30,295 nucleotides of DNA from a virus, in the IMG/VR virus record IMGVR_UViG_3300002514_000058, positions 1 to 30,295 of that record; one strand, given 5' to 3'. Shown here one piece after another: positions 2,202-30,295 of the stretch (within the stretch, counting starts at the first letter, position 1; the number at the start of each line of letters is the position of its first letter). Below the pieces are notes generated by a model. That model was not told the DNA's origin and searched no databases. It saw only the letters and a program-made list of their open reading frames with translations. The translations under genes were made by a program, and so were the position numbers.

Positions 2202-2542
2202 AGGTCTGGAAACTCCTGTTCAATAATGTCGAAGATGCTCTCAAGTTCTTCTTCTTTGAGAGCAAATTGTTTTTCCACTTCCCTGCCCTTCTTTCTTAAA
2301 GACTTGCCCTTCCTAAGCCTGCCTTTATTATACTTTTTCTTCTCTTCCTTGACCTTCTCTACATAAGCAATGAGGTTCTCGTCTCCACTAAGGTAGCCAG
2401 TCACGATGTCCCTAAAGAACTCCCCTTGATAAAAGCCATCGTAGTGGAGACGAATGCGTAGGTCGGCATGTCTCTTGTCGGTTTCCTTGAATTGGATTAC
2501 CTTGTTGAGATTGCCATAATCTATCTCGTGCTTATCGCTCAT
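2198..2542 (-). CDS. Hypothetical basic/coiled protein, 114 residues
   Basis: I do not recognise this protein. The first half is mixed, with an aromatic patch around residues 32-47. The middle (about 64-90) is strongly Lys/Arg-rich and probably helical, and the C-terminal 25 residues are acidic (EEELESIFDIIEQEF). A basic centre with an acidic tail would suit a nucleic-acid- or protein-binding adaptor, but that is inference. It starts inside the stop of the IMPDH/GMPR gene (TAATG at 2542), with AAGGAATT upstream, and its stop overlaps the sigma-like gene start, so these three genes are probably translated from one message. Confidence 0.7.
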   Translation of the reverse strand: MSDKHEIDYGNLNKVIQFKETDKRHADLRIRLHYDGFYQGEFFRDIVTGYLSGDENLIAYVEKVKEEKKKYNKGRLRKGKSLRKKGREVEKQFALKEEELESIFDIIEQEFPDL

Positions 2543-5342: not shown

Positions 5343-8300
5343 TTAGAGTACGCGGAAGTTGTGATACATGGAACGAGTAGAAAACCCCCACTGGTCGTTG
5401 TGATCTAGCTTGGCCATGTAAGGTCGGTTGACCTGAACGTGATCTTTCTCTGGCTTTACTCCCCAACACCTGATGGTGGTGATAACATTGTTATCATCGA
5501 TGACTTCCAAAACATAATATACCTTGTCGTTCTTGGTCTTCTTGATCGTAACCTTACGAGGAATGAACCACACCAATCCCAACTCCTTATCATACTCGGA
5601 GATAGCTGGCACGCCGTATTCACTTAGTTGTGCTAGCGTGTCCTCCTTGACGACTAGGTTGATTGGGAACATACCAGTTAGGTCTGTTAGATATTGTATT
5701 CTCTCCTCTGTTGAAAAGTCTCCCTCTTCTGCATAGGTCTCTATGTTCTCTAACAAGTGTTGCTTCTTCCTAGGTCTGTCAACTGCAACAGAAGACCAGA
5801 AGTGTTTTGCTCCTGCAAACCTATCATCTTGCAGCGACTTGAGAGCGCCTGACCTACAAAGGACATCGAGAGCTTTCTTGTTGAGTTTTGAATACACAAC
5901 CTCCTCGTGGAACAGGAATTCTTCAATCGTATCGAAAGGCCGATGCATCAGGATTTGATCCATTGCCGAGGCCCCCAACCCTTTGATGGAGGTTAGTGGT
6001 TGAATGAGTGTTTTGCCATCACCACTAATCTCCCAGACCTTGCCGGAGGTATTAACATTGAGTGGCTCGATCCTGAAGTCCATGCTCTTGGCGACACCAA
6101 TAGCCTTTTCTTTTCTGCTATCAGGCTCTTTATCAAGGAACGCTGCCATCCACTCTGCTCGATAGTAGTTGAGCAGCCAAGCGCATTGGAACGACAGAAT
6201 AGAGTAGGATACTGCGTGTGACTTGTTAAAGCCGTAGCCAGAGAAGTACTCGAAGTTGTTCCAGAGTTCCGCTGCTTGGTCCTCAGTCATCTTCTTATTG
6301 ACACAACCCCTCACAAACTTCTTGCGGATCTTCTCCTTATCCTTGGCTCCCTTGCCAGTCCCCTTCTTTGTCAGCAACTTACGGAGCAGGTTGCCCTCGT
6401 CAAGACTGATGTTCTCTCCAAGCTCGTGTGCCAAGGAGGCAATCTGCTCTTGAAAGATAAGGAAACCGTATGTCTCCTTGGTTACATCTTTCACTTGTTT
6501 GTTGATGTAGTTGATGTCTCGGGGATTTTCCTTTGACTTCACATACTTTCTGTCAACATTAGCGCCTAGGGGGCCCGGGCGATAGATGCTAGTGATAGCT
6601 GAAATGTCGATGATGTTCTTAGGCTTCGCCTTCTTACAGAAGTTCTGCGCTCCACTCTCTGTGAACTGGAAGATACCAGCCCACTTGCCTTTGTGAAAGA
6701 TATTCTTGTATACCTTAGAGTCTTTCAAATCAATCTTGTCTGGGTGGAGGTGCTCGTCATAGTAGTCTCGCACATCTTTGAAGGTTGGGTTGGGGTTGTT
6801 GTAGTGCCGTTTGAGGATGTGTCGGATAGCTGTCTCGATCATACGCAACGAGGCTAGCCCCAGCACATCAAACTTAATAAAGCCTAGTGGTTCTAGGTGG
6901 CGAACATTCTGCCCTTCGGACCATGGTGTCTGGATTACTCCCCCACTTCTAATCAGTGGCATGTGTTTATCTAAGTCTTCGCCAACTACCACCCCTCCAG
7001 CATGTCGGCTGGTGCTACGCACTTGGCCGTAGATAACCTTAATGTGGTCCTTGATGTGGGGGTACTTCTCCAAGTAGCCTTGTAGACTGTCCGAGAACTC
7101 CATCAACTCTTCAAAGGTAGGGATATATACACCCGACTTAATACCATGCTTGGCCTTGGCCTTGGGCGTAGCCTCGCTTACCATGCGAGATGTAACCGCA
7201 TTCGCCTCCGCAAATGGGATGTCATACAGTTTTGAGATGTCCTTAACCAGTGACTTCAGTTGCAAGGTATTAAAGTTAGAGATAGGCACAACGGTTGTGG
7301 GGCCCCATTTCTCCTGCATAATCTCTTTGAGTTCCATAGGGCTGGATACATCATAATCAATATCGGGGTAGTCTGTTGCATCCTTCCGAAGAAAACGGGC
7401 GAACTGTAGGCCGTACTTGATGGGATCTACCTGTGTAATCCCCAACGCATAAGCAACAAGTGATCCAGCAGCCGAGCCTCGGCCGGGACCAGCCAGTTGA
7501 TTCTCTGTTGCTGTGTCTGCGATGGCCTTCATTGTAAGAAAGTATTTACTAAACCCTCGGTCAGAAATCACAGAGAGTTCTTCCTCTAGTCTCGCCTTGT
7601 ACTCAGGATTGGTCAAGAGCCCAAGTTTATTGAGACTTTCTAGGCTGGTTGTCTCTAGTGCAGCGTCTGCCGTGTATCCGTTGGGAACAACGAAAGAGGG
7701 AAGTCTTACCTCGTTATCCGGCATAAAATCTTCGATGCGGTTGAAGGCGATGTTGTGCGTCTCAGTAATTGAATCCATAACCAAATCATCATCATATTGC
7801 ACTCCGTTGAGTTCTGTGTAATGTTTATAGCTCTCCCACATCTGATCGCCGTTCTTTGGGTATAGCTCGTAGCCAACCTCTGCTACGCTCTCTGGTAGCT
7901 CGTCCGATAACCATGCTGGCTTGCCTTTTCCTAGGAAGCCTAGGCGTTTGTAGAGTTCCCTATCCTTCCAAGTATCGGGTGTAGGGTAGTGACTATCTGC
8001 CGTGGAGATCAGTTTAATCCCAAACTCCTTGTGCATCTGAATGACTAAGTTGTTAATCATGTGTTGTTTCTTATCTGTGTGCCATTGAAGTTCGCCATAC
8101 CAGCGGTCACCAAAGATGTCTATCATCTTCTTGGTTGTGTCCCTGAACGCGGTAGTACAAGCATTCTCGTCAGTGATACATTCGTTCTCATTGTCCCAGA
8201 ACTTCCAGAAGTTTGCAGCGTACACGCCGCCCATACATGCAGAGGCAGCAATAACGCCTTCGTTGTGTTCCTTCAAAACCTCGTAGTCCACTCGGGGGAA

Positions 8301-8777
8301 ACGAAAGAAGTATTCATCCGAGTTTGATTTGGAGATCATGGCGAAGATATTGTTGAGTCCCGTCTGGTTCTGTGCCAGGAGAATGAGATGTGAGCGTTGG
8401 TTTAGAATACTCTTGGACCTCTTGGTCTCTGCTTCATTTTCAACAGACATAGTTGTGCTGTCTTTAATTTCGTTTGCTCGCTTCTTATCTTCTTTGGCCT
8501 TGTCTCGCTCTTGGTTCCAAGCACCTAGGCTTGGAATGAAGTACGCCTCGACGCCAAAGATGGGCTTGAAGTTCTTTCCCTCCGCCTTCATCTTCTTGGC
8601 ATGTAGGACTTGATAAGCCATCCCATTCATGTTGCCGTGGTCTGTCAAGGCTAGCGCCTCGCAACCATTCTCATAGGCGTAGTCCATGTGATCTTGCGGG
8701 TACCCTAGCGCATCAAAGGGTGAACCTGCTACTGAGTGGGCGTGTAAGCCTACGAATGGAATGCTACTCTTTTTCAA
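5343..8777 (-). CDS. dnaE: DNA polymerase III alpha subunit (family C), replicative
   Basis: A full-length 1144-residue family C polymerase catalysing template-directed DNA synthesis. The PHP domain is at the N-terminus, with HAH (12-14), TDHGN (45-49), GVEAYF (75-80) and TADSH (259-263), so several metal ligands remain. The polymerase core shows GPGRGSAAGS (430-439) and PDIDYD (471-476) with catalytic D472 and D474; a third Asp is in KFDVLGL. A helix-hairpin-helix region (KALDVLCRSGALKSL) and an OB-like region (KVYYVLEVIDD) follow. A charged insertion lies near residues 85-120. I see no separate epsilon, clamp or tau subunit in the window. The start is TTG 8777, preceded by AGGAGAGGATAT and overlapping the upstream gene by 14 bases; no ATG precedes the PHP motif. 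The phage also encodes a family A polymerase. Confidence 0.97.
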   Translation of the reverse strand: MKKSSIPFVGLHAHSVAGSPFDALGYPQDHMDYAYENGCEALALTDHGNMNGMAYQVLHAKKMKAEGKNFKPIFGVEAYFIPSLGAWNQERDKAKEDKKRANEIKDSTTMSVENEAETKRSKSILNQRSHLILLAQNQTGLNNIFAMISKSNSDEYFFRFPRVDYEVLKEHNEGVIAASACMGGVYAANFWKFWDNENECITDENACTTAFRDTTKKMIDIFGDRWYGELQWHTDKKQHMINNLVIQMHKEFGIKLISTADSHYPTPDTWKDRELYKRLGFLGKGKPAWLSDELPESVAEVGYELYPKNGDQMWESYKHYTELNGVQYDDDLVMDSITETHNIAFNRIEDFMPDNEVRLPSFVVPNGYTADAALETTSLESLNKLGLLTNPEYKARLEEELSVISDRGFSKYFLTMKAIADTATENQLAGPGRGSAAGSLVAYALGITQVDPIKYGLQFARFLRKDATDYPDIDYDVSSPMELKEIMQEKWGPTTVVPISNFNTLQLKSLVKDISKLYDIPFAEANAVTSRMVSEATPKAKAKHGIKSGVYIPTFEELMEFSDSLQGYLEKYPHIKDHIKVIYGQVRSTSRHAGGVVVGEDLDKHMPLIRSGGVIQTPWSEGQNVRHLEPLGFIKFDVLGLASLRMIETAIRHILKRHYNNPNPTFKDVRDYYDEHLHPDKIDLKDSKVYKNIFHKGKWAGIFQFTESGAQNFCKKAKPKNIIDISAITSIYRPGPLGANVDRKYVKSKENPRDINYINKQVKDVTKETYGFLIFQEQIASLAHELGENISLDEGNLLRKLLTKKGTGKGAKDKEKIRKKFVRGCVNKKMTEDQAAELWNNFEYFSGYGFNKSHAVSYSILSFQCAWLLNYYRAEWMAAFLDKEPDSRKEKAIGVAKSMDFRIEPLNVNTSGKVWEISGDGKTLIQPLTSIKGLGASAMDQILMHRPFDTIEEFLFHEEVVYSKLNKKALDVLCRSGALKSLQDDRFAGAKHFWSSVAVDRPRKKQHLLENIETYAEEGDFSTEERIQYLTDLTGMFPINLVVKEDTLAQLSEYGVPAISEYDKELGLVWFIPRKVTIKKTKNDKVYYVLEVIDDNNVITTIRCWGVKPEKDHVQVNRPYMAKLDHNDQWGFSTRSMYHNFRVL

Positions 8778-9642
8778 TATCCTCTCCTATCCTATTAAAC
8801 TTCTTTCCTGCTAGTAAGTCGTTGTGTCTTTCAAGTCTATGACCTGAACCCAAATAGTCTCTTAGTCCTTCCCAGCTATCTATATTAAAATAGTCTGGGA
8901 TTTTGACTATGTTTACTCCACTATTATCTCCTATCCCGAACACTTTGTCAAGAGAAAAATAACGAGCAGAATATCTTTCTTCTAGAGGTAGGATATCAGA
9001 AGGGAATTGTCCCTTGGGTGCCTTCTCATATGCTCCGGTTGCCGACTCCCTCAAGTGTCGCCTGTATGCTTTAAACTCTTCGGGACTAAAGCAGAACCCA
9101 AGATACAAACCATCCCTGACTGTCTTCTCATTCCAACTGACAAAGAAGCCTTCGTCATCTAGGATTGTCTTTCTGTGCTCTCGGAGGAACTCAAAGTTGT
9201 ATACTCCGTATGGAAAGGCGGCGTAAAACTTATCCGGCAGCGTCCACTTGCTGATGTTCTTGCTTATATAGTGTGCCGTGTTGGCTCCATAGAGTACGCT
9301 CCACGCTAGGCAGTCCCTCCGATCTCTATCGCGGGGATGGATCGGCACATAGTGAATTGGTATTTGTCGCCTATTGTCTGAGAGGTTTCCGGTGTCGAAT
9401 GTCCGATTGATGTACACTGGGTCTTCTACATATTCCCCTAGCCTTTTGCGGATAAGGGGCTGCATGTCGTCGCTACACACAACCCAAATGGTATTGCAGC
9501 CTGCCCAGGCACACTCTAATACCGCTCGCTCAACTGCTAAATAGTCTGCTCCGATTGGCTGAAGGGAATCATGCCAAGGAAAATTAAAATCGAGGGCTTG
9601 GCCCGCTGTGGGGACAATACCTGCTAAATGTCTTACACGCAT
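8764..9642 (-). CDS. Nucleotidyltransferase-like (GT-A fold) protein
   Basis: The N-terminus (GIVPTAGQALDFNFPW at 8-23, SLQPIG at 26-31, AGCNTIWVVCSDD at 47-59) resembles NTP-transferases of the sugar-nucleotidyltransferase fold, which begin VPAAGxGxR, then LxPI, then AGxxxIxVV. The usual Arg after the Gly loop is missing. Residues around 110-150 (DCLAWSVLYGANTA, then FYAAFPYGVY) could form the second half of the Rossmann-like domain. The 292-residue length fits the family. It might make an activated sugar or nucleotide for phage DNA or surface modification; that is inference. ATG 9642 lies inside the end of the cysteine synthase gene (10-base overlap) with a weak ribosome site, suggesting coupling. 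Its end overlaps dnaE. Confidence 0.5.
   Translation of the reverse strand: MRVRHLAGIVPTAGQALDFNFPWHDSLQPIGADYLAVERAVLECAWAGCNTIWVVCSDDMQPLIRKRLGEYVEDPVYINRTFDTGNLSDNRRQIPIHYVPIHPRDRDRRDCLAWSVLYGANTAHYISKNISKWTLPDKFYAAFPYGVYNFEFLREHRKTILDDEGFFVSWNEKTVRDGLYLGFCFSPEEFKAYRRHLRESATGAYEKAPKGQFPSDILPLEERYSARYFSLDKVFGIGDNSGVNIVKIPDYFNIDSWEGLRDYLGSGHRLERHNDLLAGKKFNRIGEDIEKE
8923..8951 (-). promoter_or_regulatory. Candidate internal promoter upstream of dnaE
   Basis: Inside the nucleotidyltransferase-like gene the minus strand shows TTGACA (8946-8951), a 17-base spacer and GATAAT (8923-8928), about 145 bases before the dnaE start. It matches the other promoters in the window, including the C before TTGAC. 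Being inside a gene it could be chance; the coding sequence there reads FSLDKV. Confidence 0.4.
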
Positions 9643-10499
9643 GAAAGGTAACGTTCGCCTCTATCACAAAGTATCGTAACCACGATACCGTCAGGATTGT
9701 TTGCTTCAATCCATCTTTCCGATGCTAACACATTTGCTCCAGAACTTATACCAACCAATAAACCACTTTCTACTAGTTGTTTCATTCTTGCCTTAGCATC
9801 ATCTGTTGAGACTAATAATACCTCATCTACCATGTCCAAGTCAACTAAAAACTTTGATCCGTCACCAATTCCTTGAATGCCATGTAGCCCGGGACTTCCG
9901 CCGCTCATTACTGGCGATTCTGATGGCTCAATGGCCAGTGTCTTCATGCGGAGGTGCTTTTCTTTTAATCTCGCTGAAACTCCCATAAGAGTTCCTCCCG
10001 TGCCTGTGCCGTCTAGGAACGCAGCAACGGTCATGCCCTTGGTCTGTTCGAGGATTTCCATGCCTGTAGTTTCGTAGTGGCATGCAATGTTGTCGGGGTT
10101 GTGAAACTGGTTGAAGTTGAATGTGTTGGGCTCTTCGCACATTTTGTTTCGGAGGGCGATGGCACCATCAAAGTCGCCCGGGTCGACCTCTATAATCTCA
10201 GCCCCAAACATTCGCATCATCTGCTTTCGTTCTTCGCTCATGTTGCATGGCATGACGATCTTAACCCTGTAGCCCATACTAACCCCGAACATAGAGACAG
10301 CGATTCCTGTGTTGCCGCTGGTGGCTTCAATGATAGTGTCCCCCTCTTTTAAGGAACCTCGTTCTTGTGCCCTGGAAAGAATGTAGAATCCTATTCTGTC
10401 CTTAATGCTACCGCTAGGGTTGTATGTTTCGAACTTGGCATAAAGCTTATCACTCAACTTAATCAATGGCGTGTTGCCCACTAACTTTCCTAATTTCAC
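9633..10499 (-). CDS. cysK: Cysteine synthase (O-acetylserine sulfhydrylase family, PLP-dependent)
   Basis: This 288-residue fold-type II PLP enzyme would make cysteine from O-acetylserine and sulfide (or a relative such as cystathionine beta-synthase). NTPLIKL (9-15) is the family start. NPSGSIKDR (27-35) carries the Schiff-base Lys33. TSGNTGIA (60-67) binds the substrate carboxylate and GTGTGGTLMG binds the PLP phosphate. GIQGIGDGSKF and GISSGAN are also family motifs. It is somewhat short for CysK (about 310-325), trimmed at the C-terminus. The start is GTG 10499 in a TAGTG junction with the upstream gene. It is a host-type metabolic gene in a phage, possibly boosting cysteine or sulfur supply; cysteine synthase versus a close relative is not settled from sequence alone. 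Confidence 0.92.
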   Translation of the reverse strand: MKLGKLVGNTPLIKLSDKLYAKFETYNPSGSIKDRIGFYILSRAQERGSLKEGDTIIEATSGNTGIAVSMFGVSMGYRVKIVMPCNMSEERKQMMRMFGAEIIEVDPGDFDGAIALRNKMCEEPNTFNFNQFHNPDNIACHYETTGMEILEQTKGMTVAAFLDGTGTGGTLMGVSARLKEKHLRMKTLAIEPSESPVMSGGSPGLHGIQGIGDGSKFLVDLDMVDEVLLVSTDDAKARMKQLVESGLLVGISSGANVLASERWIEANNPDGIVVTILCDRGERYLSCV

Positions 10500-12850: not shown

Positions 12851-14719
12851 TTATTTAATTTCACATGCTCCGCCGGCACAGGCGGCCTGGTCTGTGAGAT
12901 TGGTATTGTCTTCTAACTCAATTACCTTTGTCAAATCAACTTTTTCAAGCATAGCTAACATAGCCTCGTATGTTTCCTTTGAGCAGTCTTCAAACGGAGC
13001 CTGCCTGTAGGTTCCCCCGTCGTGAGGTAAAACAGATAAGCCGTTGTAGACATCTCTATTGTCCCACATCCATTCGCCAACGTCTGCCCACTCTGCTTCT
13101 TTAATAGAGATGGTAGCCGATACATTATGGGTGTTTTGCCCTCGCCTTGTCCCGGGACTAACCCACTCTTTGCTGACCTTGGCTACCCTCTTAAGTAGAG
13201 ATAGTGCACTCTCCGTCCGCATAATGGCACCATCGGGAGCTTTCTGTGGAACAGAAATAACCGCTGTGTCATGGGGCCTAAAGTATTCATCTTCGATCAT
13301 GTCTGGATGATTAACTAGGAGATGAGTATAGATTGCCTCATTTTTGCCCACTCGAATGCGGCGGACATAGTAGTCATTGTGCCACGCATGAATCCCGCTG
13401 GATGTTCCGAGGGCCAACGACGTTGTTCCGGCAGGTTTGACAGTTGTTGTTCTGGCTGCTTTGTTGACTCCAATGAGTTTTGCAACTCGCTCATTCTCCA
13501 TCATCACAACTTTGGATGCCTCGGTCGTGTCTAGTTCGAGAACCTTTCCAGATGCGATGCCAGTCATGCTGACGCCGATCAACGCTTCTTTTTCTGTGGT
13601 TCTTCGCCAGATGTCTCGCAAGTAGTGGAAGTCAGTGTAACCTGCTTGAAGCGTCCCAATGAACGCTGCGGCTCTCACGCGACTGTTCAACTCGCCCTGA
13701 CTCTCAACATCACTTACATTCACCTCTGTTAGATTACAGAACTGATATGGGCGCAGGGCAATCTCGCAGCAAGGATTTGTCCCCCAGTCTTTATCATTTG
13801 AAAAATAAAACCCTGGTTCTCCGCTACCCGATTCCCTCACTCTCTCCCAAAGATCTTGGAAGAACTCTTTAGTAATTCGATGACGAAGGAGCACAACCGA
13901 GTTGTTTGCTCTGCCTCTCTGCGGGTTGGTCTCCCACCAATTGCCTGTCTTGGCGGCGATCATTTCTTGGTCATCGGCTGAGAACAAAGAGATAAGCGCT
14001 GCCCTGCGGATACCCCCAGCCAATACTGCGTCTGCAATGTGGCAGATCATATCGTGAGCTTCAATGGTAGAAAGCTTATCTCCATTTTCTTTAGCCTCAA
14101 ACATTCCCTGGAGCTTGACTAGGCATTCCTTGAGGGGTTGTGGGCCCGGGGCTTTGCCTCCCGATGTTACCAGGCGTGCACCCTTGGGGCGGATGTCTGA
14201 GTAATCAAAACGAAGTTTAGAACTGCCTTGGAAATAGGATCGCACCATGGCTTTCACAGCATCGGCCCAACCCTCGATGGAATCGTTGATTAAGAATCTT
14301 CGTGTCCTCTTTGACGTCGGCTTGTTAATGGGCGGTAGCTTCTCCACATGGTGGGACTGCACACTGTATCCAACTCCCGTCCCTCCCAGCAAAAGAAACA
14401 TTATTTCCCCGAACACTCGCCAATCATCAATCGGCGCAAAGGCGCAGTTGTAGATTCGATTAGGTGCTACCTCGATAGGCTTGCCGCCAAACTGCATGGA
14501 TCGCATGGACGGGAGCACTTTCTTGTCGTGTACCATCTTGTAGGCGGTATTGATCTCCTCTCTTAGCTCTGGGTAATTCTTAACGTGCATGGCCTTATTT
14601 CTATTCACGATTTCTTTCCAAGTCTCTCTGCGCTCTTTTTTGGGAAGGTATCTTGCGTATTTCATATGCACAGTGATATCAGATAAAATATCTCTTGCAA
14701 CTTTATCTTTGTCTGTCAT
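12851..14719 (-). CDS. nrdJ: Class II (adenosylcobalamin-dependent) ribonucleotide reductase
   Basis: It reduces ribonucleotides to deoxyribonucleotides, supplying DNA precursors, with the radical made from vitamin B12. The 622-residue length and motif order fit monomeric class II enzymes of the Lactobacillus RTPR type. NCAFAPIDD has redox Cys92, LLGGTGVGYSVQ is at 110-121, and NPCCEIAL (316-323) has the radical Cys317 and Glu319. QFCNL has the partner Cys328, and the C-terminal tail has C614 and C619 (CAGGAC) for re-reduction. An extra Cys318 beside the radical site is unusual. There is no small radical subunit, as expected for class II. ATG 14719 has AAGGGGAC. It sits 13 bases after the helicase gene, apparently in the replication operon. 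Confidence 0.93.
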   Translation of the reverse strand: MTDKDKVARDILSDITVHMKYARYLPKKERRETWKEIVNRNKAMHVKNYPELREEINTAYKMVHDKKVLPSMRSMQFGGKPIEVAPNRIYNCAFAPIDDWRVFGEIMFLLLGGTGVGYSVQSHHVEKLPPINKPTSKRTRRFLINDSIEGWADAVKAMVRSYFQGSSKLRFDYSDIRPKGARLVTSGGKAPGPQPLKECLVKLQGMFEAKENGDKLSTIEAHDMICHIADAVLAGGIRRAALISLFSADDQEMIAAKTGNWWETNPQRGRANNSVVLLRHRITKEFFQDLWERVRESGSGEPGFYFSNDKDWGTNPCCEIALRPYQFCNLTEVNVSDVESQGELNSRVRAAAFIGTLQAGYTDFHYLRDIWRRTTEKEALIGVSMTGIASGKVLELDTTEASKVVMMENERVAKLIGVNKAARTTTVKPAGTTSLALGTSSGIHAWHNDYYVRRIRVGKNEAIYTHLLVNHPDMIEDEYFRPHDTAVISVPQKAPDGAIMRTESALSLLKRVAKVSKEWVSPGTRRGQNTHNVSATISIKEAEWADVGEWMWDNRDVYNGLSVLPHDGGTYRQAPFEDCSKETYEAMLAMLEKVDLTKVIELEDNTNLTDQAACAGGACEIK

Positions 14720-20944: not shown

Positions 20945-21780
20945 GAACTTTTTTCATTTTGTACCATTGATGTATTTGCTACGAAATAAGCATATTTGTC
21001 GGCGTATTGAGTAGAAAACACACCATAAGATACTTTTACGTCTTTCTCTTGCGGTGTGTCTTTTACTTGCGCCATAATCTTATTCATCAAGGTTTTATCA
21101 GTTTTTAGTTCCATCTCAGGAATGGCATAATAATACCGCTTTTCCACAACATTGTCAAGAGAAAAGAACGGACTCTCTTCGCCTGTTTCTGGATTTAATA
21201 TGCCAAAGGTTGAAATACGACACGGGTCTTTGGGGCTTGATAGGGTACCAACAACTGGCTTTGTGTGATTGAATATATTTATCATGTGGATAGTTGCCAC
21301 AATAACTTCGTTTAAGCTATCGTAATATCCCATAATCGGGGCTCCGCCTAAGATTTTGTCTATCTGCTGGTTGTCAATGGCATAAAACTGCTTAAAAACG
21401 CCAGATCTTGCATAATGTTGGAGCGCTCCAAATACAAGATTCGTTTGCATCCTTCTCATATCGGAAAGGGTGGCCACGTCTGGATGGATGTATAGGATGC
21501 TTACGTTTCCTTTGTCGTGGATTTGCTCTAGGGCTCGCAGGGCAGCGCCAGAAATGATGCTGGCTCCGGAGACAACAAAGAGTATCTCTCCGCTTACATC
21601 TCGCAGGCCGTCGCTAATATCAGGAAAGTTTTTCTCATACTCTTCCGGATGGTTTTGCTCTGGTATGCGAATGGACGCACCATCTTCGTGGTCAATCGTG
21701 ATCGTTTTGTATTGTGGATGCTTTGAAAAGGCTTTGGCTAATTTATAACCCACACTTCCAAGCCCTATTAGTATATCCAT
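20941..21780 (-). CDS. Diverged tubulin/FtsZ-superfamily-like protein
   Basis: The 279-residue protein shows the order of elements of the tubulin/FtsZ GTPase fold. GLGSVGYKLAKAF (6-18) is a T1-like Gly loop. FVVSGASIISGAALRALEQI (68-87) replaces the GGGTGTGAAP signature. DMRRMQTNLVFGAL (107-120) is followed by FYAIDNQQIDKILG (132-145), like FtsZ IPNDKLLKVLG. MGYYDSLNEVIVATIHMI (150-167) is like LLDAFGAANDVLKGAVQGI (FtsZ helix H7), and GTLSSPKDPCRIST (178-191) stands where the T7 loop would be. The Gly signature is degraded and the protein is shorter than FtsZ (about 380), so GTPase activity and polymerisation are uncertain; a Rossmann-type protein is the alternative. ATG 21780 has GAAGGA. It sits between polymerase and ssb. 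Confidence 0.5.
   Translation of the reverse strand: MDILIGLGSVGYKLAKAFSKHPQYKTITIDHEDGASIRIPEQNHPEEYEKNFPDISDGLRDVSGEILFVVSGASIISGAALRALEQIHDKGNVSILYIHPDVATLSDMRRMQTNLVFGALQHYARSGVFKQFYAIDNQQIDKILGGAPIMGYYDSLNEVIVATIHMINIFNHTKPVVGTLSSPKDPCRISTFGILNPETGEESPFFSLDNVVEKRYYYAIPEMELKTDKTLMNKIMAQVKDTPQEKDVKVSYGVFSTQYADKYAYFVANTSMVQNEKSS
21130..21158 (-). promoter_or_regulatory. Candidate internal promoter in tubulin-like gene
   Basis: The minus strand shows TTGACA (21153-21158), a 17-base spacer and TATTAT (21130-21135), inside the tubulin-like gene. It shares TTTTCTCTTGACAA with the candidate at 8923-8951, where both encode FSLD. Since the only near downstream gene, ssb, has its own promoter, this may be chance. 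Confidence 0.3.
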
Positions 21781-22955
21781 AAGTCCTTCATCTCTCCAAA
21801 GTTTCTTCCGCCAGCAACATTGGCCTTAAATCTCCCGAAAGGAGTGGCCATAAACTCCCAATAAAGCATATTGATAAACTCCCCGTCTTCATCTGCATAG
21901 TCTAACACAATACTGTCATGAATGATAAATGCTATTTTGGTTTTCTTGCCCTCTAACATTTCGTTTATCGCAATTGCCCTGTCCATAATCAAATCGCTGC
22001 AAGTACTTTGTATGATATAGTTTAGGGCGTGGTATTCATCAGAAGGAATTTCTCGATGGTACATGGTTTTTACGTGAGTACCATCCCAGAAAAGCTTCTT
22101 GACGGCTTCCCTATCGTAGAGTTTAGATAGGATCTCATCTTCGGCATTTGGGTTGTAAAGCCACGAAAAAAGTTTCTTCTTTGCCTCGTCTCTGGTTACT
22201 TGGCCGCCGAATAATTCATATGAGTTGTAATCATGAAGGTCGATGTAGGGTTGGCTTTTACCTAAGAGGCCCAAAAGGACGCGAACTTCTGCTGCATTAT
22301 AATCGAATTCAACAAACCAATTGTTAGTTGGCTTAATGATTTTCCTATACTTCTTGTCCATTGTTAGAATAGGGAAGGAATTCTTCTGAGTTGTGAGTCT
22401 TCCAGTCTTTGTGCCGAAAGGGTTGTATTTAATATAAGGCTCTGTCCTCATTATTTTTCTATAGAAGTCTTTTGTTCTTGGAGTCGCCAAGTCGTTATTC
22501 AAAACAGACAAATCAATATTTAGCTTTTGGTATTTGATGTCTGTGACCACCTTAGTGATTTCGACTAAATTATCATAGTTTTGTGGGCGGGTGTGCGTTT
22601 CTAGCACATGGCTTGTGATCTTGTCCTTAAGCTCGCAGAACTCTTTCAAGAACCCTTCGGGCACAAGGTCGAAGAAACAATGGTCTTGCATGGAGATCTT
22701 AGCTATAGAGAATGATTTGTGGAATGCCTTAAGTTTTGACCAGATACGGTCGTAATCCTCCTTAAGTTCGGGAGGACAGACTTCGCCCAGGGATTTGCCA
22801 GCGCAGTAGATATTGGCGTATTCCAGCTTAAAATCCTTGAGAAAAGAAGAATACTTCCATGTGCGCTCGGCTTCCTTTGGTAAGTCTTTATGAATTACCC
22901 CATCAAAATATATGCCGACACACTTTTCTTTTTCGTCGAGAGCCTGGAATAACAA
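21768..22955 (-). CDS. Family A DNA polymerase, polymerase domain only
   Basis: The 395-residue protein carries the Pol I/T7-type palm and fingers. TKTGRLTTQ (182-190) is the TGRL motif. FVEFDYNAAEVRVLL (214-228) is motif A with catalytic D218. RDEAKKKLFSWLYN (255-268) is the O-helix pattern R...K...F..Y. IIHDSIVLD (344-352) is motif C with catalytic D347, the usual HDE being HDS. There is no room for a 3'-5' exonuclease domain and the N-terminal 150 residues are not recognisable. The start is TTG 22955 with AGAAGG upstream, since an in-frame stop lies a few codons before and no ATG exists. It overlaps the tubulin-like gene by 13 bases. Whether it shares the fork with DnaE or does repair is unknown. 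Confidence 0.88.
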   Translation of the reverse strand: MLFQALDEKEKCVGIYFDGVIHKDLPKEAERTWKYSSFLKDFKLEYANIYCAGKSLGEVCPPELKEDYDRIWSKLKAFHKSFSIAKISMQDHCFFDLVPEGFLKEFCELKDKITSHVLETHTRPQNYDNLVEITKVVTDIKYQKLNIDLSVLNNDLATPRTKDFYRKIMRTEPYIKYNPFGTKTGRLTTQKNSFPILTMDKKYRKIIKPTNNWFVEFDYNAAEVRVLLGLLGKSQPYIDLHDYNSYELFGGQVTRDEAKKKLFSWLYNPNAEDEILSKLYDREAVKKLFWDGTHVKTMYHREIPSDEYHALNYIIQSTCSDLIMDRAIAINEMLEGKKTKIAFIIHDSIVLDYADEDGEFINMLYWEFMATPFGRFKANVAGGRNFGEMKDLWIY

Positions 22956-22965
22956 TGCTGACCTT

Positions 22966-24462
22966 CTAGTAATATTGTTTCAAGTAGATCTGAATATAAC
23001 TCATTGCGCCCTGAAAGTCAAGAGAATAATAAATTTGTTCTATTTTGTTTAGATTGCTTATCTTTTTAACATTTGATAAATTAACTCCAATTTCCCTTAG
23101 TCTTATCAAAAAATATGCTCTGAGCCAAAATAGGTCCCCATATTTGTTACTAAATTGGCTTTCTTCTATAATATCCCTAAAGTGGTCTCTTATTTGCATG
23201 GCCTTGAAATATCCGGAGGGTGCACTAGTTTTACAATAAGAAGGAACAGCCACCACCGGGTAGGTGGAGACATAAGTATTATAGAAAGAAAACAAATACA
23301 CTTTTAAATTTTCGATGTCAAAAATGTGACTTGGTATATAATAGGAAGCAAAAAGATCATCTGTTGTTATATTATCATATGGCTTAAAACGCAAAAGATG
23401 GTCGTGTGTTTCTATTTTCCCAACCTCTATGGTGGGGGAGAAGCCCGGGCCGCCACTCATTGATCGCGGCTGTATTACCCAATTAATAATTTCGTGTCGG
23501 TGATTTCCAATTGGCTGGCCCATTATTTGCTGATCGGGCCAATAAAGAGCAGTTGTGCGCCCATTCCCATTTTCGTCAACTTCATAGTCGTGCCAGTGTT
23601 CGATGATTTTTCCAGCATTAACATTGCTGGTTGAGGGCAAATTTTCTCCCACTTTGGTGTAGGTAGAAAACTGTCCTCCCCTCTTTGTTTGTGCCTTGAA
23701 GATTGGCTCCTTAATATATCTCCTTGCATACTCATGCATAACAGGGGATTGCAAATTTGCAACGAGACGCCATGGGGCGTTCTTATCAACCAAAAACCCA
23801 AACTTAGAGGCGGCAAGTGTATAGAAACTGAAATTTGGGCTGCTCAAGAACTTGTCGACTTTCTCATTGTCATCCCCATGACTAGAAAGAGACAATTCTA
23901 TACATAGGCCACTACTATTGTGTCCCGTGTGGCGAGAAGATATAAGTCCTGTTTTAGTTATTGGCGCAATTGAGATAAGGTCATTTAAGTAGCCGTTCAT
24001 GAAAAGGTCCAAAAACGTATCAAAACTTTTAATATTTTTGTGCCTAAGTCTATTATCCAGATAAGGCCCAACAAATGCGTTATAATGACTATTCATTCTT
24101 TCTTGGTATTTCTCACTAACGCCTTCCCATGCCCGGGCCGCAGACCAATTTTGTGATATAAAATTATCTGGGGGCATTCTGTTAGCGCTATCAATTTTCA
24201 TGTATTTTTCAAAATCGAAATATGCATCGGCTACAAAATTAAGTGCCCAAACATTAGAATTGCCAACCTGCTTCAAGTGATCAGAATCAGGGAATATAAA
24301 ATCATTTCTATTATTTAATTTGCCATAGTTTTTGTGGTCGGCCATTCTAAAGTCTATCGGATTCGGACTAGATGGATCAATGGGATACATAGTTTGGTAT
24401 TCGCTTCTTTTTTTAAAAAGATCCGATGAGCTTTTCGTTCTGTTTGTTGCAAAATTAACCAT
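22966..24462 (-). CDS. Presumed virion structural protein, 498 residues
   Basis: I do not recognise a named family. The protein is soluble-looking, rich in Asn, Ser, Tyr and Phe, with no signal peptide or membrane helix. Notable segments are WALNFVADAYFDFEKYM (72-88), PITKTGLISSRHTGHNSSGLCIEL, FYTLAASKFGFLVDKNAPWRLVANL, and a central Gly/Thr/Ser-rich part (KAQTKRGGQFSTYTKVGE). Its size and position in the tail gene block, directly after the 1047-residue protein, suggest a tail or baseplate component; that is by context only. The ATG at 24462 has AGGAGT. A polymerase-operon promoter lies within its last 20 codons. Confidence 0.75.
   Translation of the reverse strand: MVNFATNRTKSSSDLFKKRSEYQTMYPIDPSSPNPIDFRMADHKNYGKLNNRNDFIFPDSDHLKQVGNSNVWALNFVADAYFDFEKYMKIDSANRMPPDNFISQNWSAARAWEGVSEKYQERMNSHYNAFVGPYLDNRLRHKNIKSFDTFLDLFMNGYLNDLISIAPITKTGLISSRHTGHNSSGLCIELSLSSHGDDNEKVDKFLSSPNFSFYTLAASKFGFLVDKNAPWRLVANLQSPVMHEYARRYIKEPIFKAQTKRGGQFSTYTKVGENLPSTSNVNAGKIIEHWHDYEVDENGNGRTTALYWPDQQIMGQPIGNHRHEIINWVIQPRSMSGGPGFSPTIEVGKIETHDHLLRFKPYDNITTDDLFASYYIPSHIFDIENLKVYLFSFYNTYVSTYPVVAVPSYCKTSAPSGYFKAMQIRDHFRDIIEESQFSNKYGDLFWLRAYFLIRLREIGVNLSNVKKISNLNKIEQIYYSLDFQGAMSYIQIYLKQYY
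22993..23021 (-). promoter_or_regulatory. Sigma-70-type promoter at the virion/replication boundary
   Basis: The minus strand has TTGACT (23016-23021), a 17-base spacer and TATATT (22993-22998), embedded in the 3' end of the 498-residue structural gene. The family A polymerase starts 38 bases after the -10. It would begin the replication transcription unit. Confidence 0.68.
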
Positions 24463-24488: not shown

Positions 24489-27400
24489 CTATTCGATATC
24501 GGCGGTGGCGGCTGTCTCTTGGTCTACGCCGTATACATATTCCCCATCTGCATTAACATATACAGGTACCCCGGCTCCGGACTGCCCATAAGTCACCAAA
24601 CCGCCTATGGGACCGCCTTTCGGGGACGGGCCGCCGGCTCCTTTTTTCTTCTTGTTGGATGTCTTCTTCTTCTTGTTGGATGCTTTCTTCTTCTTGCCGA
24701 CTGCCTTCTTGGTCTGTTGTGCGTTAGCTTTGCGCGGGGCGATAGATACCGCGCCAGTGGCAGCACCAGAGGAGACCCATTTTCCAACCACTTGCGTTTC
24801 CCACTCTCCATCAGAAATAGTATTCGACACAGAGGTGACCAAATAATATCCCCCTATGCCTATGGTTCTCGAAAAAGAATTGAGGCTCTGGGGAGATCCC
24901 ATGCCCACCGTTGAGGGGTCGACATAGATGTGCATTCCGGGCTTCAGCAAGGTGTTCCCTATTAGAGTTAAATCAATATCAAATATGGCCCAAAGTTGTA
25001 TTGATTCTTTGTTTTCTAGAAAGGCTCGTTCGACCATCATGGTTGTGAATCCGGGCTTTTTATTTTTTCTAAACTTAAATTGCTTTACAAGGCCACTACT
25101 TATCCCAGGCTTAAAATGAAAAATTCCCTTATTTAAGTCTGATTGTTCGTTCCCTCTCCAAGTCGCCCCAATCCTGCTGTCATTGGAATAATATACCACA
25201 TAGCTCCATCTTTTATTTGGAGAGACACTCTTTACTCCCATTCTGGAATGTGCGATTTTGGATTTTAAGGCTCCATTTAAATAAAATCTCTTGCTTCCCG
25301 CGCCGGAGCCGAGGTAGGGGGTGGCAACAGAACCGACTTGCTTGCTGGAGCCGGCTGCATAGGCAGACTCTAGCGGTTGATTTAATTCAATTGTTACTGT
25401 GTCAACCGTAATAGGATTCTCTATCGATGTTCCAAAGCACTTTTGATTCAACGATGGTGCAAGCAATTGATGAATAGCTTGTCGGAGGAAATCATGCAAA
25501 TAATATTCATCCAAATCTTTTTCGACAACGTTCTTAAAGAAGAATTGCTGGTACATATCTAGGGTAATTGGAATGTCGGCTATGTTTGCCAACTCTACAA
25601 CTTGACCTTGGCCAACATCAATATTGATGGGGCCCATAACAAAACCAAGATGATCCGATTTTAATTTACCACTTATTCTATTTTGTTCTATCGTTGCATT
25701 TACCAAGTCCCCAAAGTAAAACCAGTGTATTTTTTGGATATCCGAAAACTCGTCTTTTGAGTCGGCCTCTGTGTTGAAAAGACTAACGTTAAAGGCACTG
25801 TTGAAATCATTTCCGATCTTACTAAAAAATCCCGTTGGGCGGCCGGCTACTGTACTGCGTCCTTTTTTGCCTACCATATCATTAAAACCCAAGGACAAGA
25901 GGGCTTCTTTGTGGGACAGCTTTCCCCCGCTGTCTTTAACCTTTTTGTTTACCATTGCATCAAAGTCCATACTTTCTGCGCCGCTGCTGTCTACCCCTTT
26001 TCTGCTGACCACTGATCTTAAATTGCTTCGCAATCTGTTCGCGGCCCGGGCGTAATCTTGGGCCGATGTTATGCCCTGGCTTTTGACTACTTGATCTATT
26101 TTTGCTTGCAATATTTTCTCGAATTCTTCTCCATACAAAATTAGAGCCGTCTTTGCAACAACCATAGATCTTAATTTATCATGTGCAACTATTGTTTGTA
26201 GCACCCTTCCATATTTGCTAATTTTATTTCTCTGCTTCAATCGTGAAAGTCGATTTGTTACGGCGCGAGTTGCCTCTTCAGCTGATTTCACGTCCTTTTC
26301 TGCGTCTCGTATGACTTTATCTGCTTCCGCGATTTCATCTAGCGTCGAAAACCCGGTTGACCCGCCGCCTGTCGAAGCTCTTTGGCTGGCGGATTTAGTG
26401 GCCAAGTAAGAGGGGTGCGAAAGCCATCCGTTCACGGGCGGAAGAGCTTCCTTTTCATCTCTGACCTTTTTAAGTTTTTCCTTTGCTTTTCTAGTATTAG
26501 CTCTCTGTTTGGACAATAGACCTTCGACTTCTTTCACAGCAGCGGCAGCCGATTGAGTCCCTTCACCAAAAATGTCATAATCAAATTTGTCCTCCAAGTC
26601 CTGCTCTAACCTTGCCTTATAATTAACAGTTAAGTTTATAACTCCATTTTCCAATATATCCAAATCATACTCTACCAAATTAAGAATCATAGACAGAGTG
26701 CTGTCTTCGAGGGCGGTGTCCAACCTGCCGCCGTTCTTCATGTAGCCTACTTCTAGTTGTAGTTCATATGACTTGGGATCATACATTTTTGGATCTCGCT
26801 GCCCTCTTCTTAAGACAAGATCAGCCAAGCTGTACCCCCCTCTATCGGCCATTAGCGCTTCTCCGCTAGAAAGAAAAAAAGATATCCTTACATCCACAAT
26901 CCTTCCTGCTCCAAAAGCATTTTGGTTTTTAAAATCAAAATCAAGACTCTTGAGGCCAAAGTCAAGACCCGCACCGGATGACCCCAGTATGTTTTCGAGC
27001 GATTGAGGATTGCCCTGGCCATAAGAAGGGGGCAATACTATTTGTGTCTTCCTAGGGCCGCTGACTTTCCAAAGCTTTATCTTTGGGTATAGTTTAGCCT
27101 TTTCAGTATTATCCATGTTTACAAAGGATCTCATAGAATCCCTTCTGGGATAGTACCCGTTTACTTTTGACACAAAAGAAGCAACATCATTGTCCAATAG
27201 ACAGGAAAAGTTTGGCCATCCAAAACTATTTATCTGGGAGACAGAGGCTCTGGTGAATGCTGACAAATTATCTCTTATAAAGCACAAGTGCAGGGGAGTT
27301 AAATCGGGGGCTTTGCTGTCTGCCGAAAGTGCGGAAGCAAGACCCTCTACAAACTCTAGGGCCTTTGCGCTGGGTTTTCCTACCAAAGAGCGGTCAGAGG

Positions 27401-27632
27401 CGGCCACTTTTGGGCCCGTCTTTGCATGGTTGAGGTGGTCTTGTTTAAAGGCCTCCTTGGAAACAGAGTCGAGGCCGGCGGAGGCCGCCGCCGGAACGAA
27501 CTTGTTGATGGCCGCTTGTTGCGGGTTCTTGGCTGCGTTTGTGGCCTTGAGTTGTGCGTCAAGGATGTTAACCACACCGTCTTTATTGAGATCTTCAGGG
27601 TGGAGCCCGGGATCCCCTGGCTTATTAGACAC
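24489..27632 (-). CDS. Large tail-associated protein with dockerin-like loop and Lys repeats
   Basis: This 1047-residue protein is probably a tail or baseplate component by size and neighbours. Residues 14-25 (DLNKDGVVNILD) match the dockerin/EF-hand calcium loop, with ligands at D14, N16, D18, N22 and D25. An Ala-rich linker follows. Around 225-340 are beta-rich segments (YELQLEVGYMKNGG, DLDILENGVINLTVNYKARL). A coiled coil spans about 370-480 (VKEVEGLLSKQRANTRKAKEK). Beta-rich regions follow to about 960, and the C-terminal part has three KKKKxSN-type repeats, then a Gly-rich and acidic tail. No enzyme motif is visible. The start is GTG 27632 with AGGAGGAT upstream. It follows the LysM-like gene by one base. 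Confidence 0.8.
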   Translation of the reverse strand: MSNKPGDPGLHPEDLNKDGVVNILDAQLKATNAAKNPQQAAINKFVPAAASAGLDSVSKEAFKQDHLNHAKTGPKVAASDRSLVGKPSAKALEFVEGLASALSADSKAPDLTPLHLCFIRDNLSAFTRASVSQINSFGWPNFSCLLDNDVASFVSKVNGYYPRRDSMRSFVNMDNTEKAKLYPKIKLWKVSGPRKTQIVLPPSYGQGNPQSLENILGSSGAGLDFGLKSLDFDFKNQNAFGAGRIVDVRISFFLSSGEALMADRGGYSLADLVLRRGQRDPKMYDPKSYELQLEVGYMKNGGRLDTALEDSTLSMILNLVEYDLDILENGVINLTVNYKARLEQDLEDKFDYDIFGEGTQSAAAAVKEVEGLLSKQRANTRKAKEKLKKVRDEKEALPPVNGWLSHPSYLATKSASQRASTGGGSTGFSTLDEIAEADKVIRDAEKDVKSAEEATRAVTNRLSRLKQRNKISKYGRVLQTIVAHDKLRSMVVAKTALILYGEEFEKILQAKIDQVVKSQGITSAQDYARAANRLRSNLRSVVSRKGVDSSGAESMDFDAMVNKKVKDSGGKLSHKEALLSLGFNDMVGKKGRSTVAGRPTGFFSKIGNDFNSAFNVSLFNTEADSKDEFSDIQKIHWFYFGDLVNATIEQNRISGKLKSDHLGFVMGPINIDVGQGQVVELANIADIPITLDMYQQFFFKNVVEKDLDEYYLHDFLRQAIHQLLAPSLNQKCFGTSIENPITVDTVTIELNQPLESAYAAGSSKQVGSVATPYLGSGAGSKRFYLNGALKSKIAHSRMGVKSVSPNKRWSYVVYYSNDSRIGATWRGNEQSDLNKGIFHFKPGISSGLVKQFKFRKNKKPGFTTMMVERAFLENKESIQLWAIFDIDLTLIGNTLLKPGMHIYVDPSTVGMGSPQSLNSFSRTIGIGGYYLVTSVSNTISDGEWETQVVGKWVSSGAATGAVSIAPRKANAQQTKKAVGKKKKASNKKKKTSNKKKKGAGGPSPKGGPIGGLVTYGQSGAGVPVYVNADGEYVYGVDQETAATADIE
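24641..24704 (-). repeat. 21-base coding repeat (KKKKxSN x3)
   Basis: Three tandem 21-base units encode KKKKASN, KKKKTSN and KKKKGAG near the C-terminus of the 1047-residue tail protein. The pattern of AAG/AAC-rich units suggests slippage or duplication and yields a highly positive segment. Confidence 0.75.
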
Positions 27633-27633
27633 T

Positions 27634-28008
27634 TTAGTATCCTCCTGCTGGTGGTGGGCTGTTTGACTCTATGGAAGTATAAATACTTAATATTTCCTCT
27701 AGGGGATTTGGTATCAAAACCACATCTCCAAATTGAATATTTGCTTCGGTGGGCAAATTATTAAATTGCGCTATCACCCACCAATGCGTTGGGTTATCAT
27801 AATATTGAGCGGCCAACTTATAGAAATGATCGCCTCGTTTCCAAATGTGGTCTATGATTGTCAAAGAGGAGATCTGTTCTTTTTTTAAATTCATAAAATT
27901 TGGAGTGGCATATTGCTGCACTTGTCTTGCGCCGCGATCTTTAAGCACATTTTTATACATTTCAGTAGAATTTGTATTTATCTCTCTGTTGTCATATCTT
28001 GAAGTCAT
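27634..28008 (-). CDS. Baseplate wedge protein, gp53-like with LysM domain
   Basis: The 124-residue protein ends in a LysM-type fold. IDHIWKRGDHFYKLAAQYYDNPTHWWVIAQFNN is followed by IQFGDVVLIPNP, as in T4 gp53 and small LysM baseplate or tail assembly proteins. LysM binds glycan in other settings; in phage baseplates it is a structural connector. An N-terminal extension of about 45 residues and a Pro-rich tail (NSPPPAGGY) flank it. It precedes the 1047-residue tail gene and follows the tail-tube-associated gene, consistent with contractile-tail baseplate assembly. ATG 28008 has AGGATTA upstream, a weak site. Confidence 0.75.
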   Translation of the reverse strand: MTSRYDNREINTNSTEMYKNVLKDRGARQVQQYATPNFMNLKKEQISSLTIIDHIWKRGDHFYKLAAQYYDNPTHWWVIAQFNNLPTEANIQFGDVVLIPNPLEEILSIYTSIESNSPPPAGGY

Positions 28009-28022
28009 TTTTTATAATCCTA

Positions 28023-28925
28023 TTATTTTTTCTCTTTATCGCTTTTAAATAACGCTTTCCACTTGTCCGACACTCTCTTCCATGGTTGCTCAATTCGGGC
28101 CTGCTCGTCAGTTTGGGCAGATAGGATCGAGTTTGTTTGCGATAGTACATAATCCCCATAAACGCTACCGGGCGGGATTGCTCTTCGAACAGGAGTACCG
28201 TCCCCTTCCGGAAGGTCGTTGGCTGCTCCACCCAGAGCGCCCTTGTACAGGTGGCCTGGTTCTAATTGATTGTTGCCTAGAACGCCGTAATGAATGGGGG
28301 AGAAGCTCAGTGTTAGGGTAAATACCTTTGGAAGAATCTCCCCGGGCAGAAAGGCGAAATCCCCAGGGCCCATAGCCTGTAGTACACCAAATTCCATATC
28401 GGGAGTAATTGATAGGGAACTTATTGTGCCATGCAAAAAGTCATCTGGTGCGCTGTTGTCCCATACCAAATTCATATATCTTATCGCCATAACTGGGGCC
28501 TCTGTAACGCTTGTTCCTTGATAGGAAGGATACATAAGCCTTGTCAAGTTGCTTATATTGGCCATGTTTCTTCTGGCTTCGGATTCATTCCCGGCAACAA
28601 GCTTCCAAGACATAGCCATTTGTCTTTCAGTATTCTTAAAAGACTGGATTGGATCTTGGCGGCCGAAGACCGAATCTTTGTTGAAATTTTGATTGAAATT
28701 GTCGTTCATAGATTCCATAAAAGCAACAAAAGTTATGGGGCTTGTAAGATTGGAAGCCCTCGCGATTTTTAAAACAAGGCCCTGATTGGCCAGCCCTGCA
28801 ACAGAATTGGTGTATCCTCCCAATCCATATTTACCAAATGCCCAAGATGCATCATCGAGTTGTTGGCCATAAAAATCATTTGTTCTTTTTAGTTGTTCTT
28901 TTTTCTGCTCTTCATATGATTTCAT
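28023..28925 (-). CDS. Baseplate/tail-tube-associated structural protein
   Basis: This 300-residue protein has a core FGRQDPIQSFKNTERQMAMSWKL, then MAIRYMNLVWDN, then GTISSLSITPDMEFGV, then LPKVFTLTLSFSPIH. That order resembles proteins at the tube/baseplate junction of contractile tails, such as T4 gp48 and gp54, which begin tube polymerisation. The match is by motif feel, not by a full alignment, so the specific part is unsure. The N-terminal 20 residues are charged (KSYEEQKKEQLKR) and the tail is Lys-rich. The gene lies between the tape measure and the LysM gene, the usual place for baseplate hub genes. The start is ATG 28925; a GGGTAT lies just upstream, a weak ribosome site. Confidence 0.6.
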   Translation of the reverse strand: MKSYEEQKKEQLKRTNDFYGQQLDDASWAFGKYGLGGYTNSVAGLANQGLVLKIARASNLTSPITFVAFMESMNDNFNQNFNKDSVFGRQDPIQSFKNTERQMAMSWKLVAGNESEARRNMANISNLTRLMYPSYQGTSVTEAPVMAIRYMNLVWDNSAPDDFLHGTISSLSITPDMEFGVLQAMGPGDFAFLPGEILPKVFTLTLSFSPIHYGVLGNNQLEPGHLYKGALGGAANDLPEGDGTPVRRAIPPGSVYGDYVLSQTNSILSAQTDEQARIEQPWKRVSDKWKALFKSDKEKK

Positions 28926-28936
28926 TTATAAATACC

Positions 28937-30295
28937 CTAGGCCTTTTCGGAAGGTAATGGCGCATTTCTTCCGAATCCAAAATTGTCATTGATGCGACTA
29001 ACAACTGTCTTTGCAAGTTTTCTACCGTCTACTTGCATAACAACCTCCAGGGGTTGTGGAGCTGGTTGTTGTTGTTGCTGTTGCATTATTGCCTTCGTTA
29101 ATTTTTCAACTTGTTTTGCTAACACCGGGACGAGTGCAGCACCAGCGATTCCGGATTGGCTAATCTTATCAGCTATTCTGACATCCTTTTGGCTAATTAC
29201 TTCCGCTCCCCCTTTGGGAGCCTTTGCAAATACTTGCTCACCCGGGTCAACCTGCACTGTTGCGCCGGGTGGGATGAATCCACCAAACTGTCTTCTACTA
29301 AAAACTGTTGGCATTTCTGCTTCTTTGAGGAACGCGGTCGTGGCTTTGCCCGTGCCGATTTCCCCTAGGGGTACCGATTGTGTGGTTGTTTGATTTTCCG
29401 CCCCTCCAGATGATATGACACCAAATGCACCTAGTCCGAAGGCGGCGGCAACGCCTCCAAACAAGAGTGCCAAGGGGATGTTCCCGGCAATCGCGGTGAC
29501 AGCTGCGGCGATACCTGCGAGAGTGGCGATCATTCCCATTCCCTCTGTGCTGAGATGGTCACTCAGCTTTTTGACTGCCAAATATCCACCTATGAAGCCG
29601 GCTGCGAGTCCGCTGAAGGCCGTGGCGGTGGCCGAAGATAGTCCGAGCATAGAGAAGGCTACATAATCGACCGCCGCCCCTACCGAATATAAGATAAGTG
29701 CGATATCACCACCCCATTTAATAAACGAGGCAAGCATATCGACAACGGGAATCAAAGCCTTTAGAAGCGGTGTTAAAGTAATAGTCAGTGTTTGCAAAGC
29801 AGAATTCATTTTGTCCATTACGCTGGCGGTGTCTTTTATCGCATTCATCATTTGCTCTTCTGTTGAGAGCATATCTTTTTCTGTGAGCTGTTGGCCTTCC
29901 ATGATTTTTTGCAAATTGCCAAAACTAATGCCCATTTCGTCAGCCAAAAGCTTTCTTTCATAAAAGCCCATGTCGTCCATGCTCTTACCAGCTTGCCGGA
30001 ATGCGTCCTGAAGCAGTTCAACTTGAGCAACAGGGCCTTTGCCTGCTGCCATAACTAAATCGAAGGCATTCACAAAAGAGCCACCAAGTACAACATTAAT
30101 GGTAGCAACTTTACTTGCTGCGCTTTCAAAATCTTGGAGGCCCTGAGTTAAATTGAATAAATCTTGGGCTCCCGTCTTCATGTCTAGGCCGAATTGCCTT
30201 GCAGCTATAGCAGTATCTGAAAATACTTTTTGGGCTTTCGAACCAAAGAGAGACAACTGTGGCATCAATTGATTAAACTGGGCCGAGAGGGACCT
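28937..30295 (-). CDS. Tail tape measure-like protein, N-terminus beyond window
   Basis: The open frame runs to the window end with no stop before 30295 (RSLSAQFNQLMPQ is read from the edge), so at least 453 residues are the C-terminal part of a longer protein. It contains helical segments and clustered hydrophobic stretches (IALILYSVGAAVDYVAF, ATATAFSGLAAGFIGGYLAV, GIAAAVTAIAGNIPLALLFGGVAAAFGLGAF) as in tape measure proteins, which set tail length and exit with the DNA. Then come FGGFIPPGATVQVDPGEQVFAKAPKGGAEVISQ, a pattern often seen near tape measure C-termini, a MQQQQQQ run and a basic end. It is the first gene of the visible tail block. In-frame TTG/ATG at 30268/30265 are internal. Confidence 0.78.
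   Translation of the reverse strand, partial: RSLSAQFNQLMPQLSLFGSKAQKVFSDTAIAARQFGLDMKTGAQDLFNLTQGLQDFESAASKVATINVVLGGSFVNAFDLVMAAGKGPVAQVELLQDAFRQAGKSMDDMGFYERKLLADEMGISFGNLQKIMEGQQLTEKDMLSTEEQMMNAIKDTASVMDKMNSALQTLTITLTPLLKALIPVVDMLASFIKWGGDIALILYSVGAAVDYVAFSMLGLSSATATAFSGLAAGFIGGYLAVKKLSDHLSTEGMGMIATLAGIAAAVTAIAGNIPLALLFGGVAAAFGLGAFGVISSGGAENQTTTQSVPLGEIGTGKATTAFLKEAEMPTVFSRRQFGGFIPPGATVQVDPGEQVFAKAPKGGAEVISQKDVRIADKISQSGIAGAALVPVLAKQVEKLTKAIMQQQQQQPAPQPLEVVMQVDGRKLAKTVVSRINDNFGFGRNAPLPSEKA

Follow-up and report, generated by a model that had tools for sequence, protein, structure and literature searches.

The window analysed here, i.e., bases 1-30295 of a 42,942-base virus record (30,295 bases), encodes a 1047-residue tail protein with a short stretch resembling the calcium loop of dockerins near its N-terminus. 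This raises the question of whether the loop is a genuine calcium-type site, which part of the virion carries it and what it may do there. An earlier note described residues 14-25 as an exact type I dockerin loop with ligands at positions 1, 3, 5, 9 and 12, which is borne out by direct translation: minus strand 27558-27593 reads DLNKDGVVNILD (D-L-N-K-D-G-V-V-N-I-L-D), all five positions are D or N, and the five-ligand set and the DG at positions 5-6 are intact. We take D14, N16, D18, N22 and D25, plus a backbone oxygen, to be the ligands of one Ca2+. The coordinates of the loop, of the gene that carries it and of its neighbours are given in Table 1. The GTG start of this gene, hence the translation of the loop, is well supported: it lies one base away from the stop of the preceding LysM gene and has its own Shine-Dalgarno-like site, and no AGGAGG-like site accompanies the next in-frame starts (codons 20, 76, and 83).

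Table 1. Features of the loop-bearing gene and its surroundings in the window.
Feature	Position	Strand	Basis
Tape measure-like protein, C-terminal part, continuing past the window end	28937..30295	-	Weak PHROG tail/tape measure matches
300-aa protein between the tape measure and the LysM protein	28023..28925	-	No convincing Pfam/PHROG match; conserved in relatives
LysM protein, 124 aa, baseplate wedge-like	27634..28008	-	Pfam LysM 21.2 bits; phrog_7145 (baseplate wedge subunit) E 2.9e-7
AGGAGG, Shine-Dalgarno-like site, 8 nt upstream of the hub GTG	27641..27646	-	Sequence
Predicted baseplate central hub protein, 1047 aa, GTG start	24489..27632	-	ORF, fold matches
N-terminal hub extension, about residues 1-87, GC 56%	27372..27632	-	Missing from most relatives
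Dockerin-type loop DLNKDGVVNILD	27558..27593	-	Translation; Pfam Dockerin_1 positions 2-17 of 57, 17.5 bits
Predicted helix after the loop, residues 23-35	27528..27566	-	AlphaFold2, full-length and fragment models
Predicted hub core, residues 175-955, gp27/gp44/VgrG-like, with long helical insertions	24768..27110	-	VIA-align Z 12-15 to solved baseplate hubs
C-terminal hub tail, residues 956-1047, Lys-rich, low model confidence, GC 55%	24492..24767	-	Model, composition
498-aa protein downstream of the hub	22966..24462	-	No Pfam/PHROG match; conserved in relatives

The dockerin-type loop is more than a chance resemblance. A six-frame scan of the window returned one strict, one intermediate and one loose match, all of them the loop at residues 14-25, and no strict or intermediate match was present in the other 12.7 kb of the record (L002, part of the 118-locus background set) nor in any frame of the 118 related loci, whose total of 1,106,494 bases counts overlapping contigs. 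The strict and intermediate patterns were likewise missing from thirty shuffles of the window (908,850 bases). By chance alone, a loose D.[DN].DG pattern emerged in 803 of 20,000 residue shuffles of the hub protein, as would be expected if the motif were fortuitous and bound no calcium, but only four of the same shuffles gave the intermediate pattern and none the strict one, and with the full pattern equally missing from 1.1 Mb of related loci we find a fortuitous motif hardly credible. Ambiguous bases occur near window position 30296 and in a few other places of the record, since the ORFs past the window contain X residues.

The part of the virion that carries the loop can be named from the predicted fold and from the neighbouring genes. 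None of the 37 aligned members (the hub and 36 relatives) matched a hub family of Pfam or PHROG at E 0.01. The AlphaFold2 model of the protein, built on a 37-sequence alignment (pLDDT 72, pTM 0.70), matched best with VIA-align a chain of a cyanobacterial contractile system (7b5h_AJ, Z 15.0, 264 residues, 3.5 A), and also matched a phage P1 baseplate chain (9vzk_1, Z 14.4), Mu gp44 (1wru, Z 13.5) and T4 gp27 (1k28_D, Z 12.4), at an identity of about 6-15% only. With Foldseek, the best PDB match was a tail tip chain of phage Bxb1 (9d93_Oa, E 7.8e-4). In the window, the gene comes after the tape measure and LysM genes, the LysM-like/hub order is the same in the relatives L005, L007, L009, and L010, and the remainder of the record harbors genes matching the major capsid and tail tube proteins of named phages. 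The position of the LysM gene is gp53-like, in T4 naming. Together, the fold matches and these fitting neighbours mark the modelled 1047-residue protein as the gp27/gp44/VgrG-like hub at the centre of a contractile-tail baseplate. With the hubs of T4 (gp27), Mu (gp44), VgrG, P1, and phi812 it shares the fold of residues 175-955, whereas the long helical insertions and the extra N- and C-terminal pieces set it apart. A helical stretch at about residues 360-483 (window 26184-26555), inserted in the hub core, varies in length among the aligned relatives.

Other genes of the region deserve mention in their own right. The 300-aa and 498-aa proteins of the baseplate region (28023-28925 and 22966-24462) are family-less, yet they are kept beside the hub in relatives. 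A PolA-like gene (21768-22955) is present separately from a DnaE-type polymerase (5343-8777), and the phage also bears an IMP dehydrogenase (2542-3561), a class II ribonucleotide reductase (12851-14719) and a PALP enzyme (9633-10499) that we read as cysteine synthase-like.

Dockerins are paired repeats, whose tandem loops form a domain with the cohesin as partner. The Pfam Dockerin_1 profile (PF00404) matched the record with 17.5 bits (E 2.2e-4), below its cut-off of 22.9 bits, and the whole hub protein with 14.1 bits (E 0.054); depending on the stretch tested, the score varied from 14.1 to 18.9 bits and was always under the cut-off. Only 16 of the 57 profile positions are spanned, which corresponds to one repeat out of two. 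In the PDB, the best-scoring sequence match of hub residues 1-100 was a dockerin, that of a cellulosomal family-48 hydrolase (2y3n_B, E 0.0045). The earlier note saw a single repeat at the N-terminus of a tail protein and proposed a search for another; the six-frame scan of the window contains no second repeat and the profile match stops at position 17, so that this description holds, the tail protein being now specified as the central baseplate hub. AlphaFold2 predicts a loop followed by a helix, as in one dockerin half, in both the full-length and the fragment models. The block means for the helix of residues 23-35 are 53-57 pLDDT in the full-length model, whereas in the fragment model (residues 2-90) the loop and the next helix have block means of 87-89 and the remainder 50-66, a confidence biased towards the loop because the fragment alignment was selected by the motif itself. 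Outside residues 12-31 of the N-terminal piece, model confidence is low. For the N-terminal fragment model, Foldseek gave no PDB match and VIA-align no matching chain, a result that speaks neither for a novel fold nor against one.

The helix that follows the loop is hydrophilic. Type I dockerins are expected to have at this place a hydrophobic helix, which packs against their second repeat, and the mean hydropathy in the hub (-0.8) is lower than in all 48 paired dockerin-like contexts compared; among the matches listed, 9 of the 73 single-loop viral contexts have a post-loop helix as hydrophilic, an observation more compatible with a free-standing loop than with a two-repeat domain. Cohesin-like domains elsewhere in the genome, which the earlier note suggested looking for, did not appear in a cohesin profile (PF00963) search of the 42,942-base record, which may be a fragment. 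Cohesin matches arose solely in 2 of 23 records, at a sub-threshold 15.9 bits. They map to a 433-aa ORF located downstream of the capsid gene, and since the equivalent ORF of this virus gives no match, we dismissed them as probable chance matches. The hub thus has in common with type I dockerins the 12-residue loop, with D or N at positions 1, 3, 5, 9, and 12 and DG at 5-6, and the predicted helix after it, but unlike them it exhibits one loop instead of two, a partial profile match under the cut-off and a hydrophilic helix, with no cohesin found. If it were a true dockerin, the hub would bind a cohesin, either within the virion or at the surface of the host, a reading that the Pfam and 2y3n_B matches of the loop sequence would suit, but which the single repeat, the sub-threshold score and the absence of any cohesin match in the record render extremely improbable. 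Docking in the dockerin sense, one of the roles first envisaged for the loop, is not supported, and the loop is a calcium-type loop of the dockerin kind, yet no true dockerin.

The loop belongs to a piece of the hub that most relatives do not have. Relatives were reached via the tail tube, the PolA-like gene and the hub alignment, and none of the 76 distinct homologous ORFs compared, nine of which are open at the 5' end, contained the fuller dockerin-like loop pattern anywhere. Ten of these 76 homologues match a looser D.[DN].[DNS]G pattern, but we set them aside because their matches lack the hydrophobic and acidic residues that come later in a dockerin loop. In the 36 homologues aligned with the hub (P0001) at 19-31% identity, a median of 24 residues precedes the column of P0001 residue 112, compared to 111 in P0001 itself; the five ligand columns are all gaps in 31 of them, and the other five have no ligand set. 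Long N-termini, with at least 90 residues before the same column, are present in L009, L174, L192, L193, L010, L198, and L206, none of which has the loop, and a Dockerin_1 search of 23 records gave a match in this virus alone. Conservation, which had been put forward as a check on the loop, was therefore not found as far as these distant homologues go, and no close homologue turned up. Beyond these relatives, a tblastn search of 50,697 phage records with the whole hub or only its first 100 residues as query returned nothing even at E 10, the hub of a relative (L203) likewise returned nothing at E 0.001, direct viral-contig scans with the hub, P0003 and the N-terminal 90 residues gave no relative, and neither did a genome-contig scan. 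The collections may omit the records nearest to the window, so that closely related hubs bearing the loop may exist. No homologue with the extension was found, and there is consequently no evidence of selection keeping the ligands.

Base composition differs along the gene: GC content stands at 41-43% across most of the core and at 48.7% in the helical insertion of residues 358-470, but rises to 56.4% in hub residues 1-88 and to 55.1% in the C-terminal tail. This tail is absent from L005, L007, and L010, three of the four relatives first aligned, and the fourth, L009, has a different long tail. The GC-rich ends and their absence from relatives point to N- and C-terminal pieces added to the hub.

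We lean slightly towards the reading that the hub carries a single dockerin-type calcium site on an acquired N-terminal extension of about 87 residues, an accessory decoration that does not act through a cohesin. One Ca2+ would be held by the five side chains and the backbone oxygen named above, and would cap and order the following helix (residues 23-35), whereby the extension would become stiffer and protease-resistant once the virion meets calcium; such a stabilisation by the loop is plausible. Because relatives lack the extension, the hub core presumably works without it, which would make the extension an accessory outside the core injection machine, with no cohesin binding. The same extension may also be a mere passenger, recently acquired from a dockerin-like source and without function in the virion, the loop being intact only through its youth. 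A loop unique to this hub among the 76 distinct ORFs, a base composition unlike that of the hub core and a weakly hydrophobic post-loop helix would all suit a passenger, and the five ligands and DG left intact and the 87 open, well-started codons speak against it, yet both are compatible with a young passenger, an origin that we consider rather unlikely.

Docking could also take place without a cohesin, if the calcium-ordered N-terminus bound another part of the virion, e.g., the wedge ring, an adjacent hub subunit or an accessory spike protein. The matches to the hub fold mostly start at residue 168 or later (about residue 171 onward), so the extension, lying outside this fold, could reach neighbours, and another phage tail-tip hub (L058, see below) carries a Dockerin_1 domain over the cut-off; however, the baseplates of relatives manage without the extension and the binding partner is only hypothetical, so that we judge such docking improbable. 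Even fainter is the prospect of a maturation switch, in which the loop would remain unliganded during assembly in the calcium-poor cell, then fold and lock the hub onto a neighbouring baseplate part after lysis into calcium-rich surroundings.

The preferred reading, a calcium-type loop decorating a phage structural protein, can be compared with similar loops elsewhere. Viral proteins often contain one dockerin-type loop on its own: scanning viral contigs for the loop gave at least 120 stretches with at least 132 instances of the loop in at least 124 distinct contexts, and, among the matches listed, 75 of 124 contexts are single-loop and 49 have a second loose loop within 15-75 residues. Among the same listed matches, 51 loops lie at most 60 residues from the C-terminus and 15 at most 35 residues from the N-terminus, 27 of the 78 loop-bearing proteins scanned match Dockerin_1 at E 1e-4, and further ones match tail proteins, endolysins and lectin domains. 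No other hub of the present family was found among 4,548 ORFs of the 120 motif-bearing loci listed (E 0.01). The tail-tip hub of L058 (4029-6068; Prophage_tail, E 1.3e-18) shares with our hub a calcium-type loop on a phage hub, but its dockerin (30.2 bits at 523-567) exceeds the cut-off and follows the hub domain on the C-terminal side. A dockerin stretch like that of L058 occurs in one phage record only, MT835558. Viral contigs also contain small proteins (79-111 aa) in which a dockerin-like loop precedes a Lys/Arg-rich tail (L046, L047, L053, L054, L064, L104, L116, L134, L148, L152, and L159): at least 20% K+R after the loop was counted in 11 of the 15 closed ORFs of 60-135 aa among the motif matches listed.

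In the literature, calcium-binding Dx[DN]xDG loops are described as having evolved repeatedly and independently in many unrelated folds (PMC3123361); the hub has the same linear motif with a later acidic ligand, but its calcium site is only predicted, and the text of that paper never uses the word phage. The phage lysin LysGH15 is reported to have an EF-hand-like calcium site of the loop-F type that was likened to dockerin (PMC4022735). It shares with the hub a calcium-type loop of this pattern on a phage protein, whereas its loop lies in the catalytic CHAP domain of a lysin and the calcium was seen in the structure. Similarly, gene 40 of phage VvAW1 is reported to have blastp homology to a dockerin protein (PMC3558961) and would share with the hub a dockerin- or EF-hand-like loop on a phage protein.

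As single loops are common in viral proteins, including the tail-tip hub of L058, a dockerin-type loop on a phage structural protein is already a known kind of feature. No earlier report of such a loop on a baseplate hub was found in the open-access literature searched, and its placement, alone on the hub at the centre of a contractile tail, is modestly unusual. The loop opens no new system and represents an ordinary case of a known kind; if calcium binding were demonstrated, it would add another example of phages fitting a small borrowed metal site onto a conserved part of their machinery.
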